From Psittacicella melopsittaci (lineage in GTDB: Bacteria > Pseudomonadota > Gammaproteobacteria > Enterobacterales > Psittacicellaceae), in the NCBI RefSeq assembly GCF_003585925.1, contig NZ_NRJH01000003.1, positions 1 to 64,000 on the forward strand: 64,000 nucleotides of DNA. Reading direction: 5' to 3'. The first letter of the stretch is position 1. Every line of letters begins with the position of its first letter. Below the pieces are notes generated by a model that was given only the letters and a program-made list of their open reading frames with translations, was not told the DNA's origin and made no database searches. Shown one piece after another: positions 2,440 to 64,000 of this stretch. The translations under genes and the position numbers were made by a program.

Positions 2440-2549
2440 TAAGACTTTAAATTTCTCAAACCTAAAAGAATTGGTAATTTTTACTTTTGAGAAGTATCCA
2501 CTAAAAATTATTCTTTTGGCAGAAGAATAAAATAAAATACTTAATAAAT

Positions 2550-5500
2550 ATGAATAAAATTTTTAAACTCAAATTTAACCGCCAGACTAAGCAAATGAAT
2601 GCAGTTTCCGAAATTGCTACTAATGCTATTTCTGGGTCAGGTAACAATCTTAAACTCTCTACACGTCTAGCTAAATTAGCCAGCCTACTTCTTCCTCTAA
2701 CTTTTTCATTTGGCCAAGCTCTGGCACAAACTCCATTTCAAGTTGTTGCAGGAAATGCGAATTTAGTTACTAATGGTTTGGTGACCACCATTACCAATAG
2801 TAAAAATGCCATTCTCGAATGGGATAAATTCAACATTAATAGCAATGAATTAGTAAGATTTATCCAAGAAAGTTCTGACTCTGCGGTTTTAAACCGTGTG
2901 TTAGGCGGAAGTGTATCGCAAATTCTTGGTACTTTAGAATCAAACGGTAAAGTATTTATCGTAAACCCTGCAGGTATTGTTTTTGGGGAAAACTCTGTAG
3001 TTAATGTGCAGTCTTTAGTGGCATCGACCCTTGATATTAGCAACGAAGACTTTATCAACGGCAACTATGTGTTTAACCAAGGCAAAGACCAAGCTCTGGC
3101 TCAAGTTCTGAACCAAGGGGTTATTAAAGTAAACGATGATGGCACTCTAGCTCTGGTAGGGGGTCAAGTAGTAAATACAGGCGTTCTTGAAGCAAAAAAT
3201 GGTACTGTGTACTTACTGGCAGGTCAGTCAATTACCATTCAAGATTTAGATAACCCATTAATCTCTTATAAAGTAACGGCAGACAATAAAGCGGTTAACC
3301 TTGGGGAAATTGTTAGTAAAAAAGCAAGACTAGCAGCTAACCATGTGGCACATGGTTATACTACAGCAAAACCTTTTGCTGATCTTGTAGCAGGAGCTGA
3401 CTCAGCTAAAACTGCTACTATTAGTGCCCAAGGACATGTTACTCTCGATGGTGGGGATACAAGCCTTGTAAATGGTGCTATTGTTGCAGGACAAATTGAT
3501 GTTCTAGCAAATGGTGTAGTAGCTGTAGAAAGTAATGCTCACCTTAAAGCTAACCAACTGGTACGTATCGGTGGTGATGCTCTCGGTAAAGGCGAAGTTA
3601 AACTCGCAAGTAAAACTCTAGTGCAAGCAGGAGCTGTAGTTGACACTTCAGCAACTGGTGATGCTGGAGATATAGTTGTATGGGGAAATCAAGCTGCAGT
3701 AGCAGGTAAATTCCTTGCTACTTCAGAAACTGGTCAAGGTGGTCTGGTTGAAACCTCAGGGAAAGTAATTCGTCTGGATGGGGTAGATGTAGATACACGC
3801 AGTACTCTTGGTACCCAAGGGACTTGGTTAATTGACCCGCATGAGCTACAAGTTCTTAATAGCACTGCTTACGACAAAATCAAGGAAGAAAATTCGATTT
3901 TTGCCGAGTTTTATGACTTTGGGGATAGTGAAGACCTTAAATCTGGTTCATACACTGTTGCCCAAGACGAGTCAAAACTCTTCTCTTACTTAAAAGACGA
4001 TGATCTCACTGCTCAACTTAAACAAACCAATGTAGTTCTGCAGATTAACCCTGAAGCTGGTGTAGACTCAACCATTAAGTTTGATAATGCTAACGTTGAA
4101 GGGAATCATCTCTATGGTTTAACTTTACATGCTAATAATTTAGAGTTACAAGATACTAATATTTACGATTTAGCTTACTTTAACTTCACTAGTACAACTG
4201 GCGTACAAAGTAAAAATGCTAGATTTACCTCTTCAACTTTACTTGAAGTAAAAGAACTTAAAGTAGATGTAAACGCAAATATTACAAGTAGAAATTCAAC
4301 TTTTATTGTTGATAAAGTAGCACTAGTAGCAGCTAACCTCACTGCAAATGGCTCTCTATTTACCTTAAGTAGAGATACAGGTACTACTTCTACCCTAACG
4401 GTAAGCCAAGCTCTTATCCTCAATCAAACCACAGTAGATACAGGTGGCAGTCTTGTAACTAACGGTAAAGGGGCAGTAACTCTAACGCGTAACTCAAGAG
4501 TAGAGGCTCGTAGCCTTAAACTAGAGTCTGATGCTACAGTTAACTTACAAAACTCTATTCTTAATGCAACTGAAGGTAACCTTGAGCTTAAAGCTAACCA
4601 AGTGAGCTTAAACCAAGCTACCTTAAAAGCAGCAAATGGTAAGCTTGATCTACAAGCAACAACTGCTTTAACAAGTACTTGTTCAACTCTAACAGCAGGA
4701 CAAGCTGCGAGCTTAACTAGTACAGGTACTTTAACTCTTAATCAAGATACAATTGAAACCCCTGAGACTTTAACTATTACAGGGCAAGATAAAGTAACTC
4801 TAACTAATCCTGATTTAACAGTAGAAAAAGATATTTCTGTTAAATCTAGCCAAGGTAGTGTAACTGTAGAAAACCTAGAGTTAAACCCAGAAGCTGATCT
4901 AAACCTTGAAGCTAAAACTGACTTAAATGTTCGTGGATCTACGCTTCTAAGCATGAGCGATGATATTAATCTAACGGCAGCTAACCTAAAACTCGAAGGT
5001 TCGCATCTCACTCTATTTGCTGGAGCGTTAAATGTTTCAGCTACAGGTACAGCGACGTTAAAAGATAATACTATTACTCTTCTAGAAAACAATTTAAATC
5101 TAACTGGTACTAGCCAAGCAGAGTTAAGTAACAACTCTTTAAGTGCTAAAAACATAAATCTAGAAGCTGACAGCTTAACTAGTAAAAAAGACAGCTTTAC
5201 GGCAACGGATTTAAATGTAACGACAAAACAAGCATTTACGAGTCAAGATTCAAGTTATGCGATTAGAAACAATGCTAGTTTAACTTCTGAATTTAAGTTA
5301 ACTATTAGCAATACTGACTCGACTAAAGCTGTAAATGCTACTAATGCTTTAAGCGTTAAAGGTTATAACGTTGACCTTACTAATGCGAACCTAACTGCTA
5401 ATAACGGTCTTCTTAAAGTAGAAGGTACAGGTAGCATTAACCTTACCAAGGTTAATTTAAATGCCACAGCTGATGAGCTCCAAGTAGTAGGAGGAAAACT

Positions 5501-7997
5501 CACTGCTACTGACAGTGTTCTAAAAGCTAAAGATGATTTAACTTTAGCAACGAAAACTGCGATCCTAAATAACACTACCCTTGAATCACAAGCGAACCTA
5601 AATCTACGTGGTGACAGTGCTACGGCAGAGCAAGGAACAAGCTTTACAGGGGAAAATGTATATCTTGATACAAAAACTACTAAATTAGATGACGCAGATA
5701 TTAGTGCAACAGGTGAAGTAGCCTTCACTAATAAAGAAGCTGGGGCAAGCCTAACTCTTGAAGATACGGAAATTACCGCAACTGACGGTTTAAGATTTGC
5801 CTTAGATCAAGGTGAAGTAACCCTTGAAAAAGCACATCTTACAGTTTATCAAGGTGATCTTGATGTCAAAGCAAAAGACCTTAAAGTAGGTAGTACTACC
5901 GTAACTGCTTTTGCTGGTAACATCAACCTAGATACTGATACGGCTAATTTAAATGCTTTAACTACGTACACTAAAGAACTCGAAATTAATGCTAGTGAGC
6001 AATTAACGGTAGCAGGTTCTCAACTCAATGCTGAAAACGCACAAATTAGCACGGAAAACCTTAACCTGCAAGGCTCTACTATTTATTCTGATCTTGCACC
6101 TTTAGCGATAAATGCGACTACAGCAACACTAAATAATGCAAATCTCAGAAGTTATGGTAGTGCCGTTAACCTAAAATCTGACAGCTTAACTGCTGATCAG
6201 TTAAGTGTTACAGGTAGAGCTCTTAACCTTGATAAGGTTAACTCTGACAATACTCAAGCTCAACTAAGCCTTAGTCACACTAGTCTCGTTACCCAAGGGG
6301 AAACTAATATCAATCATGGTACAGTAAACCTTGAAGATATTAGTATCACTAGTAGAGATCTTGCGGTTAAAGCAACTGACCTCACAACCTCTGGTAGCAC
6401 TAATGTCTTTGCTCAAAATAGCGGAACAACTAGTATTGAGACTACAGGTGACCTCAAGTTAGCTAATACCTTTACTACTACTAAAGATCTCAGCTTAAAT
6501 GCAGGTAATGACCTGACTTTAGAAAATAACGTGCTCAATGCTCCACAAATTGAACTGGTAGCTACAAACGAAGTTAAAAGTGAAGGTTCAATCTTTGACG
6601 GAGATGGTTCAAGTAAACTAAGCATTAAAGCAGCAACTACTACTATTGCCTCTGGTGAAATTGATAACTTTGAGAATCTAGAAGTAGATGCAAAAGAAGT
6701 TAATCTAACTGGAAATAAACTACAACTTGATGCTATAACTATTACTGGTACTGAAACTACTCCAAATCTTTCAGGTAATGAAGGTGAAGTGAAAAACACT
6801 CCAACCATCAATGGTGAGAGAATTAGTGACGAAGAGTTAGCAAAATCTAACCCTACACTAGTTAACAAAGATGAAAATCCACCTGAAGAAACTAAACCAG
6901 TAGAGCCAGAACCAGAGCCGGAACCAGCTCCAGCTCCTGCGGAACCAGTTGAGCCTGCACCAGCAGATCCAACTACCCCAGGTACGGAACCTGCAACAGA
7001 TCCTAAAGATCCTGGTACTGGTGAGACTACAAATCCTTCTACTCCAGCGGATCCAGGTACAACACCAACAGATCCAAGCACAACTGAGCCTGTAGATCAA
7101 CCTACAGAACCAGGTGAGCAAGCAAAAGATCCAAGTGAAACTCAACCTACTGATCCTGTTGCAGAACCTAAAGAGCCAGTTGTAGATCCTGATCCAGCTC
7201 CTGTTGAGCCTGATCCAGTTGAAGAACCTGCTCCAGCTCCAGTAGATCCTAAAGATCCAGGTACTACAACTCCAACAGAACCAGGTACAAGTGAACCTGT
7301 AGAGCCTGCTCCTGTAGATCAACCTACAGAACCAGTTGAGCAACCTAAAGAACCAGGTGAAACTCAACCTACAGTTCCAGTTGAAGATCCTAAAGATCCA
7401 AGTGAAACTAAACCTGCTGAGCCTGTAGAACCTGAACCTACTACTCCAGTAGAACCAGCTCCAACTGAGCCAGTAGTACCTGCTCCAACTGATCCTGTAG
7501 ATCAACCTACTGATCCAGTTGAGCAACCAACAGATCCTGTTGAGCCAGTAGTTCCAACTCCTGTTCAGCCTGTTGAGCCTGCTCCAACTCCAGTTCAACC
7601 TGTAGAGCCAGCTCCGACTCCAGTTCAGCCTGCTCCAGTAGAACCAGGTGAAGGTCAACCAGGTTTAGATTTACCACCATTACCGGCAAACTTTGAAGCA
7701 CCAGATGCTTTCCGTGAGCCAAATCGTTACTGGTTTGTGCAAAGTAATGCAGATATACGTAACCTCAACCGTGGTTATGCTAACTTCTCACCAAATGCTC
7801 AAGACTTACCAGTAGCTCCATTAACCTTACCTACGCAAACAATTACTATTACAGGTAATTTAACTGCAACTCAGGTAATTGATCAAGTTTCTCGAGAACT
7901 TAATTTAGATCCTCGTACCCAAACGATCCAATCTTTATTAAGTAACCCTGATTTAACCTCAGAACAACGTCAATTACTTGAACAAGTAGGTCAATAA
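2550..7997 (+). CDS. Two-partner secretion adhesin, filamentous haemagglutinin-like (TpsA)
   Basis: An 1815-residue secreted adhesin. The N-terminus (MNKIFKLKFN...AVSEIA) is a typical extended signal peptide region, followed by a hydrophobic core ending near residue 60. Residues about 60-300 form the TPS secretion domain, with the NPAG signature (139-142) and the usual strand pattern. Residues about 430-1440 consist of degenerate beta-helix repeats rich in Asn, Thr and Leu. Residues about 1443-1703 are a Pro/Glu/Asp/Thr-rich repeat tail (EPVEP, DPTDP), and about 110 residues follow. Export would need an outer-membrane TpsB transporter; none is in the window. There is no good Shine-Dalgarno at the ATG. 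HMW-type adhesins of Haemophilus are the nearest concept. The binding target cannot be read from sequence. Confidence 0.88.
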   Translation: MNKIFKLKFNRQTKQMNAVSEIATNAISGSGNNLKLSTRLAKLASLLLPLTFSFGQALAQTPFQVVAGNANLVTNGLVTTITNSKNAILEWDKFNINSNELVRFIQESSDSAVLNRVLGGSVSQILGTLESNGKVFIVNPAGIVFGENSVVNVQSLVASTLDISNEDFINGNYVFNQGKDQALAQVLNQGVIKVNDDGTLALVGGQVVNTGVLEAKNGTVYLLAGQSITIQDLDNPLISYKVTADNKAVNLGEIVSKKARLAANHVAHGYTTAKPFADLVAGADSAKTATISAQGHVTLDGGDTSLVNGAIVAGQIDVLANGVVAVESNAHLKANQLVRIGGDALGKGEVKLASKTLVQAGAVVDTSATGDAGDIVVWGNQAAVAGKFLATSETGQGGLVETSGKVIRLDGVDVDTRSTLGTQGTWLIDPHELQVLNSTAYDKIKEENSIFAEFYDFGDSEDLKSGSYTVAQDESKLFSYLKDDDLTAQLKQTNVVLQINPEAGVDSTIKFDNANVEGNHLYGLTLHANNLELQDTNIYDLAYFNFTSTTGVQSKNARFTSSTLLEVKELKVDVNANITSRNSTFIVDKVALVAANLTANGSLFTLSRDTGTTSTLTVSQALILNQTTVDTGGSLVTNGKGAVTLTRNSRVEARSLKLESDATVNLQNSILNATEGNLELKANQVSLNQATLKAANGKLDLQATTALTSTCSTLTAGQAASLTSTGTLTLNQDTIETPETLTITGQDKVTLTNPDLTVEKDISVKSSQGSVTVENLELNPEADLNLEAKTDLNVRGSTLLSMSDDINLTAANLKLEGSHLTLFAGALNVSATGTATLKDNTITLLENNLNLTGTSQAELSNNSLSAKNINLEADSLTSKKDSFTATDLNVTTKQAFTSQDSSYAIRNNASLTSEFKLTISNTDSTKAVNATNALSVKGYNVDLTNANLTANNGLLKVEGTGSINLTKVNLNATADELQVVGGKLTATDSVLKAKDDLTLATKTAILNNTTLESQANLNLRGDSATAEQGTSFTGENVYLDTKTTKLDDADISATGEVAFTNKEAGASLTLEDTEITATDGLRFALDQGEVTLEKAHLTVYQGDLDVKAKDLKVGSTTVTAFAGNINLDTDTANLNALTTYTKELEINASEQLTVAGSQLNAENAQISTENLNLQGSTIYSDLAPLAINATTATLNNANLRSYGSAVNLKSDSLTADQLSVTGRALNLDKVNSDNTQAQLSLSHTSLVTQGETNINHGTVNLEDISITSRDLAVKATDLTTSGSTNVFAQNSGTTSIETTGDLKLANTFTTTKDLSLNAGNDLTLENNVLNAPQIELVATNEVKSEGSIFDGDGSSKLSIKAATTTIASGEIDNFENLEVDAKEVNLTGNKLQLDAITITGTETTPNLSGNEGEVKNTPTINGERISDEELAKSNPTLVNKDENPPEETKPVEPEPEPEPAPAPAEPVEPAPADPTTPGTEPATDPKDPGTGETTNPSTPADPGTTPTDPSTTEPVDQPTEPGEQAKDPSETQPTDPVAEPKEPVVDPDPAPVEPDPVEEPAPAPVDPKDPGTTTPTEPGTSEPVEPAPVDQPTEPVEQPKEPGETQPTVPVEDPKDPSETKPAEPVEPEPTTPVEPAPTEPVVPAPTDPVDQPTDPVEQPTDPVEPVVPTPVQPVEPAPTPVQPVEPAPTPVQPAPVEPGEGQPGLDLPPLPANFEAPDAFREPNRYWFVQSNADIRNLNRGYANFSPNAQDLPVAPLTLPTQTITITGNLTATQVIDQVSRELNLDPRTQTIQSLLSNPDLTSEQRQLLEQVGQ
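6880..7660 (+). repeat. Proline-rich coding repeats in the adhesin tail
   Basis: Short imperfect DNA repeats encode EP, DP, PVEP and PTDP units for about 260 residues. Such tails often span the cell wall or periplasm, or hold a passenger at the surface. The repeats make the region prone to length change by slippage. Confidence 0.8.
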
Positions 7998-58874: not shown

Positions 58875-59130
58875 GTAAGGAAAGAGAAGGAAAGGAAAGG
58901 AAAGGAAAGAGAAGGAAAGGAAAGGAAAGAGAAGGAAAGGAAAGGAAAGGAAAGGAAAGAGAAGGAAAGAGAAGGAAAGAGAAGGAAAGGAAAGCCGTTT
59001 TTTTATGTCTGGATTTTAGTTGATCACTAATTTAAATAATTAACCACAAAAGAAAGGAAAGCAAAGGAAAGCAAAGCAAAGCAAAGGAAAACAAAGGAAA
59101 GCAAGCAAAGCAAATGAAAGCAAAAGAAAA
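58875..59130. repeat. GGAAA/GAGAAGGAAA purine microsatellite
   Basis: Pure purine repeats of GGAAA and AGAGAAGGAAA to 58994, interrupted by the first 47-bp direct repeat, then GCAAA/GGAAA repeats to about 59130 grading into A-rich sequence. Noncoding and prone to slippage. Confidence 0.85.
58998..59044. repeat. 47-bp direct repeat, left copy
   Basis: Runs from TTTTTTATGTCTGG to TAATTAACC and matches the copy at 60327-60374 with one clear mismatch (G for T). The two copies bracket the CUGCCAA RNA locus. Confidence 0.85.
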
Positions 59131-59492: not shown

Positions 59493-60333
59493 TTCTTATT
59501 TATTTGGTGGTCGAGCTTTGCACTTATGCATTTTAATTCTAAGTTACGTTCTTCATATAGGCAAAGGACTAATTACTAAAATATTTTTTCCTTGAAAATA
59601 TTTTTTTAAACTTTATATCATAGTTAACAAATCAAGCCACACAAGATTCTCGAGAGACCAAGGGAATTATGATGAAGAAAGTTAAGGTCTGCCAAACTTA
59701 TACTTTCACTTGTAATTTTTAATCTGCCAATAAAAATTATTACGCCTTTAATATTTTCTGCCAAAAATATTAATTCAATTCATTGTAAAGAATTTGCTTA
59801 ATCGGATCTTGAGTTATATAAAGTTTTTTATAAAGTTGTTCGCAAATTATAAAAATCACTATAAACAAATACATTTCTATATTTATCTATATTAAGTTAT
59901 ATGCAAGTTCTTCTTGCTCTTCGCAAATTTTTTTACATTTGCCTATTGGTATATATTATCTAACACGATAATCTTTTGTTTCATAGTTAAAACTTAATTA
60001 CATGACTGCCAACATGTAACTAAGGATCTTTATAGATTTACGAATCAGTTTTACAAATAGTTTTATATAACTACCTGAAATGATCATCCAAGTAGTTTGA
60101 GAGTCTACTTCATTAAACAACCTGCCAATCTGTTTAAACTTTTAGCTGCCAACTAAAAGAGGATGAAAGTTTTAATGATTTGTAAATCTTATTCATATTC
60201 AAATCTGTTTTTTATTTTAACCACTAGAGAAGCCAACTCGAAAAAGGTAATACCTGCCTATATTGATTACCTTGTGGTTAAAACAAAAGTTATGCTGAGA
60301 ACTTAAAAAGACATCTTTTTAAGTTCTTTTTTT
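59493..60333 (+). ncRNA. Large RNA with repeated CUGCCAA-loop hairpins
   Basis: About 840 bases without a protein gene. Six hairpins carry CTGCCAA in the apical loop: stems 59677-59686/59697-59707, 59714-59721/59731-59738, 59749-59757/59764-59772, 59998-60004/60013-60019, 60113-60119/60131-60137 and 60139-60145/60153-60159. A seventh (60244-60251/60266-60273) has CTGCCTA and sits inside a 10-bp closing helix (60215-60224/60274-60283). The stems differ in sequence while the loop is constant, which is the signature of selection on the loop. Between 59773 and 59990 lie other hairpins without the motif. A strong terminator ends the unit. By analogy with CsrB or RsmZ it could titrate a loop-binding protein, but the loop is not GGA. 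Confidence 0.65.
60298..60333 (+). terminator. Terminator of the CUGCCAA-loop RNA
   Basis: A 14-bp stem (60298-60311 with 60314-60327, arm AGAACTTAAAAAGA) followed by seven Ts. It fixes the direction of the RNA as plus. Confidence 0.9.
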
Positions 60334-60374
60334 ATGTCTGTATTTTAGTTGATCACTAATTTAAATAATTAACC
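60327..60374. repeat. 47-bp direct repeat, right copy
   Basis: Begins in the T-run of the terminator and ends at TAATTAACC. Partner of 58998-59044. Confidence 0.85.
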
Positions 60375-60867: not shown

Positions 60868-60896
60868 TTGAAAGATAAGATGAGTTTTTTTACATA
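60868..60896 (+). promoter_or_regulatory. Promoter of the UGGUUAG-loop RNA
   Basis: TTGAAA (60868-60873) and TACATA (60891-60896) with 17-base spacing. A start near 60903 falls at the first hairpin of the RNA. Confidence 0.5.
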
Positions 60897-60902
60897 AAGC
60901 AA

Positions 60903-61285
60903 AAACCCATCCTAGATGATCTACCTAGTGATGGGTTTTAACCGTTGCCTAAGCGACAACAAAAACAGTCTGAACTCATATATTAATCCTTTGATTAGTT
61001 GGTTAAACTAGTTTGGACTAAAGGATTGTGGTTATTTTTTGGTTTTTGTCAATTTATGTTTATGAGGTTGGTTTTTTTCTATAGGCTAGTTCCTGTTAGA
61101 TTAATTTGTTTGAAGTTTTTAGTTTGTAGTTAGTGTCCTTGGTAGGGACAGTGTTTTCTCTTTAAGCTGGTTAGACTCTTAGAAGAAAACGGGAAAAAAG
61201 AAGAGGATCTTGGTTAGGGATCAGTCTTTTTTCAAAGGGATATATTATTTGTTTGTATAAAGTAATTGGTTAGATTACTTTTTTA
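60903..61285 (+). ncRNA. Structured RNA with UGGUUAG-type hairpin loops
   Basis: Starts with hairpin AAAACCCATC/GATGGGTTTT (about 60905-60937). Then a helix AATCCTTT/AAAGGATT (60985-60992 with 61020-61027) encloses an inner stem (60993-60999 with 61007-61013) with loop TGGTTAA. Further loops: TTGGTAG (61139-61145, stem TGTCC/GGACA), CTGGTTAG (61167-61174, weak stem TAAG/CTTA), TTGGTTAG (61210-61217, stem GATC/GATC) and TGGTTAG (61267-61273, 7-bp stem AAGTAAT/ATTACTT). The last hairpin is followed by a T-run and may be the terminator. No reading frame. Confidence 0.5.
61259..61285 (+). terminator. Probable terminator of the UGGUUAG-loop RNA
   Basis: A 7-bp stem (61260-61266 with 61274-61280) with loop TGGTTAG and a T-run. 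The stem is AT-rich, so termination may be incomplete. Confidence 0.6.
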
Positions 61286-63948: not shown

Positions 63949-64000
63949 TTAAACGTTTAAATAACCGTCTTCTCTTAAGTAAGCAAGGAAGTCATCACAA
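63949..64000 (-). CDS. C-terminal end of a gene cut by the window edge
   Basis: Sixteen codons ending ...DDFLAYLREDGYLNV and TAA at 63949-63951, followed by a strong terminator. The codon pattern and terminator support a real gene, but the fragment is too short to identify. Confidence 0.6.
   Translation of the reverse strand, partial: CDDFLAYLREDGYLNV

Follow-up and report, generated by a model that had tools for sequence, protein, structure and literature searches.

A noncoding RNA of about 0.7 kb, encoded on the plus strand at 59628..60333 of the window (the whole 64,000-nucleotide stretch of DNA analysed here, G000:C23:1-64000), is likely to be a trans-acting antisense RNA for the ESPR type V secretion adhesin family of Psittacicella, a genus of bird bacteria. 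On computational evidence, we give this reading a probability of about 0.74. The RNA, here called the GCCA-loop RNA, has conserved hairpins with GCC(A) loops and a conserved linear element, ends at a terminator, and contains no ORF of at least 60 aa, as expected from the initial annotation, which had seen no protein gene in the locus. Since the leaders and starts of adhesin genes are complementary to its loops and its antisense stretch, the RNA most likely controls this surface-protein family by RNA-RNA pairing. The window's genome is denoted G000, and the three other Psittacicella genomes compared are G001, G002 and G003. The genus belongs to the Psittacicellaceae, Pasteurellales in the NCBI taxonomy.

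A candidate promoter, TTGAAA-18-TATCAT, identified by consensus match only, is located on the plus strand at 59592..59621, and the RNA start would be near 59628. The initial annotation had begun the unit, with a candidate promoter, at 59493; with the site given here the start would lie further downstream and the RNA would be shorter. The loci of G001 and G003 have promoter-like sequence at a corresponding position, and the number of promoter-like matches in the region (10, with 10.9 expected from shuffles) shows no excess. The intrinsic terminator (60297..60328, plus strand) has a 14-bp stem followed by a T run and is present as previously described. No Rfam match was found for the region at the gathering threshold or at E <= 10, consistent with the earlier suggestion that the RNA may be undescribed. 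A DNA search of the phage collection with the RNA gave no match. A search for a second copy, using three spaced TGCCA motifs, produced no clear candidate and mainly coding or repeat matches, and it exposed clusters of TGGCA in adhesin leaders.

CTGCCAA occurs six times on the plus strand (59689, 59724, 59758, 60006, 60122, 60146), each time in the apical loop of a separate stem. Hairpin 1 (59679..59699), with CUGCCA(A) in the loop, has a weak 5-bp stem. Hairpins 2 (59712..59740, loop AUCUGCCAA) and 3 (59748..59773, loop CUGCCA(A)) have 10-bp stems. They are followed by hairpin 4 (59998..60019, loop ACUGCCAA), hairpin 5 (60113..60137, loop ACCUGCCAAUC) and hairpin 6 (60139..60159, CTTTTAG-CTGCCAA-CTAAAAG). 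The six hairpins on different stems described initially are thus all present, as is the one with CTGCCTA: this is hairpin 8 (60246..60271), GGTAAT-ACCTGCCTATATTG-ATTACC, with the G002 counterpart GTAAT-ACCCGCCTTTTTG-ATTAC. To these we add an eighth GCC loop, that of hairpin 7 (60227..60239), read by eye as GAG-AAGCCAA-CTC and corresponding to GAG-TTTGCCAG-CTC in G002. One more hairpin, AAGTAG-TTTGAGAGT-CTACTT (60090..60110), like all the others on the plus strand, is identical over 21 nt in G001; it was not found at up to 3 mismatches in G003 or in G002, where the RNA is incomplete.

The GCCA loops are far in excess of chance. Six were observed in the hairpin loops of the G000 RNA, the mean over 300 dinucleotide shuffles being 0.10; no shuffle reached six, and no tetramer whatever reached six in the loops of the shuffles. 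The RNA as a whole is also more stably folded than its shuffles (z -2.8). The automatic hairpin list contains four GCCA-loop hairpins in G001 and five in G003, and more can be seen by eye. Shuffles of these two RNAs average 0.11-0.13 GCCA loops and none equals the observed number. G001 alone is not decisive, because 13 of 300 shuffles of its RNA show some tetramer repeated four times.

The RNA was found by BLASTN and by a pattern made from the conserved 3' element in all four Psittacicella genomes; the G002 copy comprises only the 3' part, at a contig end. When genome contigs were scanned with this pattern, RNA-bearing matches came from Psittacicella hinzii only, and six others, judged by title, were taken as chance. 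Comparison of the hairpin lists of each genome, from which stem changes were read directly, demonstrates that the stems and the number of hairpins (four to nine) vary between species, and that the GCC(A) loops and the linear element are kept. For instance, the hairpin just 5' of the linear element (hairpin 6) is CCTTTAG-CTGCCA-CTAAAGG in G001 and ACCTTGT-CTGCCAA-ACAAGGT in G003, at the same place as in G000. Together with the excess over shuffles, this bears out the earlier proposal of selection that keeps the loop constant while the stems vary. Retention of CTGCCAA itself applies to the core, where GCC is invariant and nearly always GCCA; the exact heptamer is sometimes changed. The loci of G000 and G003 share a calcineurin-like phosphoesterase gene and a small membrane protein gene as neighbours, those of G000 and G002 agree on the ulaA/pfkB side, and the G001 locus adjoins a different gene.

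The linear element TTGTAAAT[C/A]TTATTCATAT (60178..60199, plus strand) is conserved in four of four genomes, and its flanks are not. It is antisense to the ESPR start region AUGAAUAARAUYUAYAA: the other strand of the element TTGTAAATCTTATTCATAT reads ATATGAATAAGATTTACAA, the start of ESPR genes (MNKIYK...). Genes of this family, defined by Pfam PF13018, number 13, 9, 9 and 6 in G000, G001, G002 and G003, respectively; in all leader and start comparisons, the gene start was taken as the first ATG of a long ORF. The best matches of the RNA to ESPR starts of its own genome are 30/31 nt in G002, 26/28 and 21/22 in G003, and twice 19/20 in G000. All of them fall on the same linear element, over the AUG. 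In each genome, the mean complementarity to the genome's own ESPR starts is higher for the real RNA than for any of 40 shuffled RNAs. No other 30-mer of the G000 RNA pairs as well with the 13 ESPR starts as the linear element does, and the duplex energy of the element is lower with these than with other starts (n = 321, p 1e-7). About a third of the ESPR genes have a start-codon match not above background. Many of the start matches are not independent, as the ESPR N-terminus is itself conserved and the starts are related by descent. A feature of trans-encoded base-pairing sRNAs is seen here: unpaired stretches that are conserved and complementary to mRNA start regions or their vicinity. The GCCA-loop RNA also has a terminator of its own, and its promoter is a candidate by consensus match only.

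UGCCAA, the motif of the loops, is exactly reverse-complementary to UUGGCA, and TTGGCA is the top enriched hexamer in the 400 nt before 36 ESPR genes (30 sites, with 5.2 expected from other G000 leaders). Its reverse complement TGCCAA occurs there three times. TTGGCA is present in 18 of the 36 ESPR leaders vs 18 of 181 others (p 2e-7), all control leaders being from G000. By genome, it is found in 10 of 13 ESPR leaders of G000 and in 8 of 23 of the other three genomes (p 0.003, with G000 genes as the background). The ratio of TTGGCA to TGCCAA is 19:0 in G000, 4:2 in G001 and 2:1 in G003; the pooled p is 0.03 for TTGGCA and 0.004 for TGGCA. The enrichment is strong in G000 and weak in G001 and G003, and outside G000 it is suggestive. 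TTGGCA is absent from the 400-nt leaders of approximately half of the ESPR genes. The sites extend to about -400, and further upstream the enrichment is at background. The full complement of the G000 loop CUGCCAA, TTGGCAG, occurs eight times in ESPR leaders, with 0.1 expected.

The leader sites tend to be in hairpin loops: this holds for 19 of 39 [TCA]TGGCA sites, compared with 9.1 (maximum 16) when the flanks are shuffled. An example from the window is the plus-strand hairpin TTATTCTT-TTGGCAG-AAGAATAA (2508..2530), whose loop is fully complementary to CUGCCAA. It lies 20 nt upstream of the predicted target, an ESPR/TPS-domain secreted adhesin gene on the same strand (2550..7997; Pfam PF05860 2.5e-29, PF13018 9.4e-7), whose start codon region (2547..2562, plus strand) is complementary to the linear element at 15/16 positions. 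Similar hairpins are AATAACT-TGGC-AGTTATT at -48 of the ESPR gene at G000:C42 and ATTGCAATCT-ATGGCAA-AGATTGCAAT at -114 of that at G001:C127. The ESPR leader at G000:C55 has five sites. Ten TTGGCA copies were also observed in a tandem array (L172:2377-2596, i.e. G000:C78:9376-9595) with a 47-nt period and about five copies. The array has no credible ORF, is not upstream of an ESPR gene, and folds no better than shuffles; it could be a decoy of the GCCA-loop RNA, or simple repeats.

In the long adhesin mRNA leaders, the UUGGCA loops would form kissing complexes with the repeated UGCCAA loops of the RNA. The single-stranded element UUGUAAAUCUUAUUCAUAU would then pair across the AUG and the following codons (MNKIYK...), and the resulting duplex should keep ribosomes from binding. 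With several identical loops, one RNA may grip a leader at several points; alternatively, the loops may serve many paralogous mRNAs that have only the loop in common. We infer that both RNAs are present in cells and that they pair. The GCCA-loop RNA probably acts as a repressor, with activation or decay as possible outcomes. If this model holds, a single RNA reaches an entire family of large, fast-evolving surface adhesins by means of a shared six-base loop code and of the ESPR signal codons, a stretch unable to drift. It would be an RNAIII-like regulator beyond staphylococci, with unusually many near-identical kissing loops, and a testable system for multivalent loop-loop pairing that coordinates a paralogous gene family.

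The kissing contacts and the start-codon duplex with repression are proposed by analogy with RNAIII of Staphylococcus aureus, which represses rot via two loop-loop contacts and coa via one such contact combined with a duplex at the ribosome site (PMC2837412). Both are long multi-hairpin RNAs with a repeated loop motif, and surface or secreted protein mRNAs are repressed by RNAIII (PMC2837412) and predicted to be repressed here. However, sequence and host are unrelated, and no delta-haemolysin gene is seen here. The loops of RNAIII are C-rich and anti-Shine-Dalgarno, whereas here they are UGCCAA, the target leaders carry UUGGCA loops, and the predicted duplex spans the AUG and codons 2-9. C-rich loops complementary to Shine-Dalgarno sequences were not encountered, the best pairing being with the UUGGCA loops and start codons, and the Rfam model of RNAIII had no match in the region at the gathering threshold or at E <= 10. 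Many hairpins sharing one loop motif and an intrinsic terminator are also features of CsrB, CsrC and RsmZ, but here there is no GGA-loop array and no RF00018 or UvrY match, and the partner appears to be mRNA. The loops of Listeria LhrC are CU-rich. This sRNA, too, has repeated loop elements, and it controls an adhesin mRNA (LapB; PMC4132741). LhrC is short and multicopy, whereas here a single long RNA has as many as eight GCC(A) loops.

The initial annotation suggested a titrated protein partner, as for CsrB/RsmZ; this is probably wrong. A sponge of this kind would sequester an RNA-binding protein, possibly a diverged CsrA whose preference had shifted from GGA to GCCA. Besides the CsrB-like build with many hairpins and a strong terminator, what speaks for it is CsrA itself. 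In all four genomes csrA adjoins alaS as in relatives (G000:C16:83356-83469, L073; also L071, L072, L074), and among the order's 386 positive genomes its product is the most diverged, with 25-37 bits vs mostly about 90 elsewhere. It has lost the C-terminal helix and R44, a residue that characterised CsrA proteins need to bind RNA (PMC7652899, PMC6692469), and has two small insertions; dN is well below dS, which implies purifying selection. The Rfam CsrB model (RF00018) has no match in the four Psittacicella genomes, nor was any match found in them to the family of UvrY, which with BarA controls CsrB/RsmZ RNAs, and GGA is present in none of the listed hairpin loops of the G000 RNA and in one of G001. 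Yet many relatives with ordinary CsrA likewise lack an Rfam CsrB match, and a sponge predicts neither the loop complement as the top hexamer in the leaders of one gene family nor an element antisense to start codons. Since these two observations indicate mRNA partners, the partner of the GCCA-loop RNA is probably RNA rather than protein, and we consider a sponge unlikely. A general CsrA-like GCCA regulon is disfavoured by the absence of enrichment at other gene starts of G000, sampled from stretches totalling about 488 kb, where there are 8 GCCA-loop hairpins and 10 with TGGC. Still less probable is a rewired Csr system, in which CsrA would read UUGGCA loops of adhesin leaders instead of GGA, the GCCA-loop RNA would displace it by base-pairing to these loops, and the G000:C78 array would act as a decoy; one loop motif would then be contested by a protein code and an RNA code.

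Read in opposite orientations, the loop and leader motifs are one and the same duplex sequence, so that a transcription factor might bind TTGGCA/TGCCAA as double-stranded DNA, and the antisense element might be left over from an inverted fragment of an adhesin gene. This is very doubtful given the strict orientation of both motifs (6:0 in the RNA and 19:0 in the leaders of G000), the location of sites in hairpin loops beyond chance, and the retention of the element in four species while its flanks change. The 7-nt anticodon loop of the G000 tRNA-Gly(GCC), UUGCCAA, coincides with CUGCCAA at six of seven positions, and the hairpins could mimic this arm as a decoy for an enzyme or nuclease that reads it. 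But the loops are of variable size (about 6 to 12 nt), and homologues often have A or C in place of U33 (AGCCAA, CGCCAA), which leaves such mimicry a highly improbable explanation. We find it equally hard to credit a structural RNA with internal tertiary loop contacts, like ROOL or GOLLD: the RNA is large and structured, but it matches nothing in Rfam even at the lax threshold, and it has four to nine hairpins depending on the species.

Several other features were observed in and around the locus. A tiny ORF, MMKKVKVCQTYTFTCNF*, follows a GGGA stretch in the 5' part of the RNA (59669-59722). The sequence TTGC[CA]TATTGGTATATATTATCT (59934-59962, within the RNA) recurs beside terminators elsewhere in G000 and G002 (L003, L006) and is possibly a promoter. 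The locus is flanked by a 48-nt direct repeat with 98% identity (58998-59045 and 60327-60374). It lies in a stretch of nearly 8 kb with almost no genes, from 58832 to the end of the window at 64000 and on to about 66.6 kb, which also contains low-complexity runs of the GGAAA type at 58.88-59.15 kb. A second conserved noncoding candidate, probably on the minus strand and with a terminator at its end, was found at 60895-61000 (AAAACCCATC...GATGGGTTTT); it is present in G002 (L005) and G003 (L054) as well.
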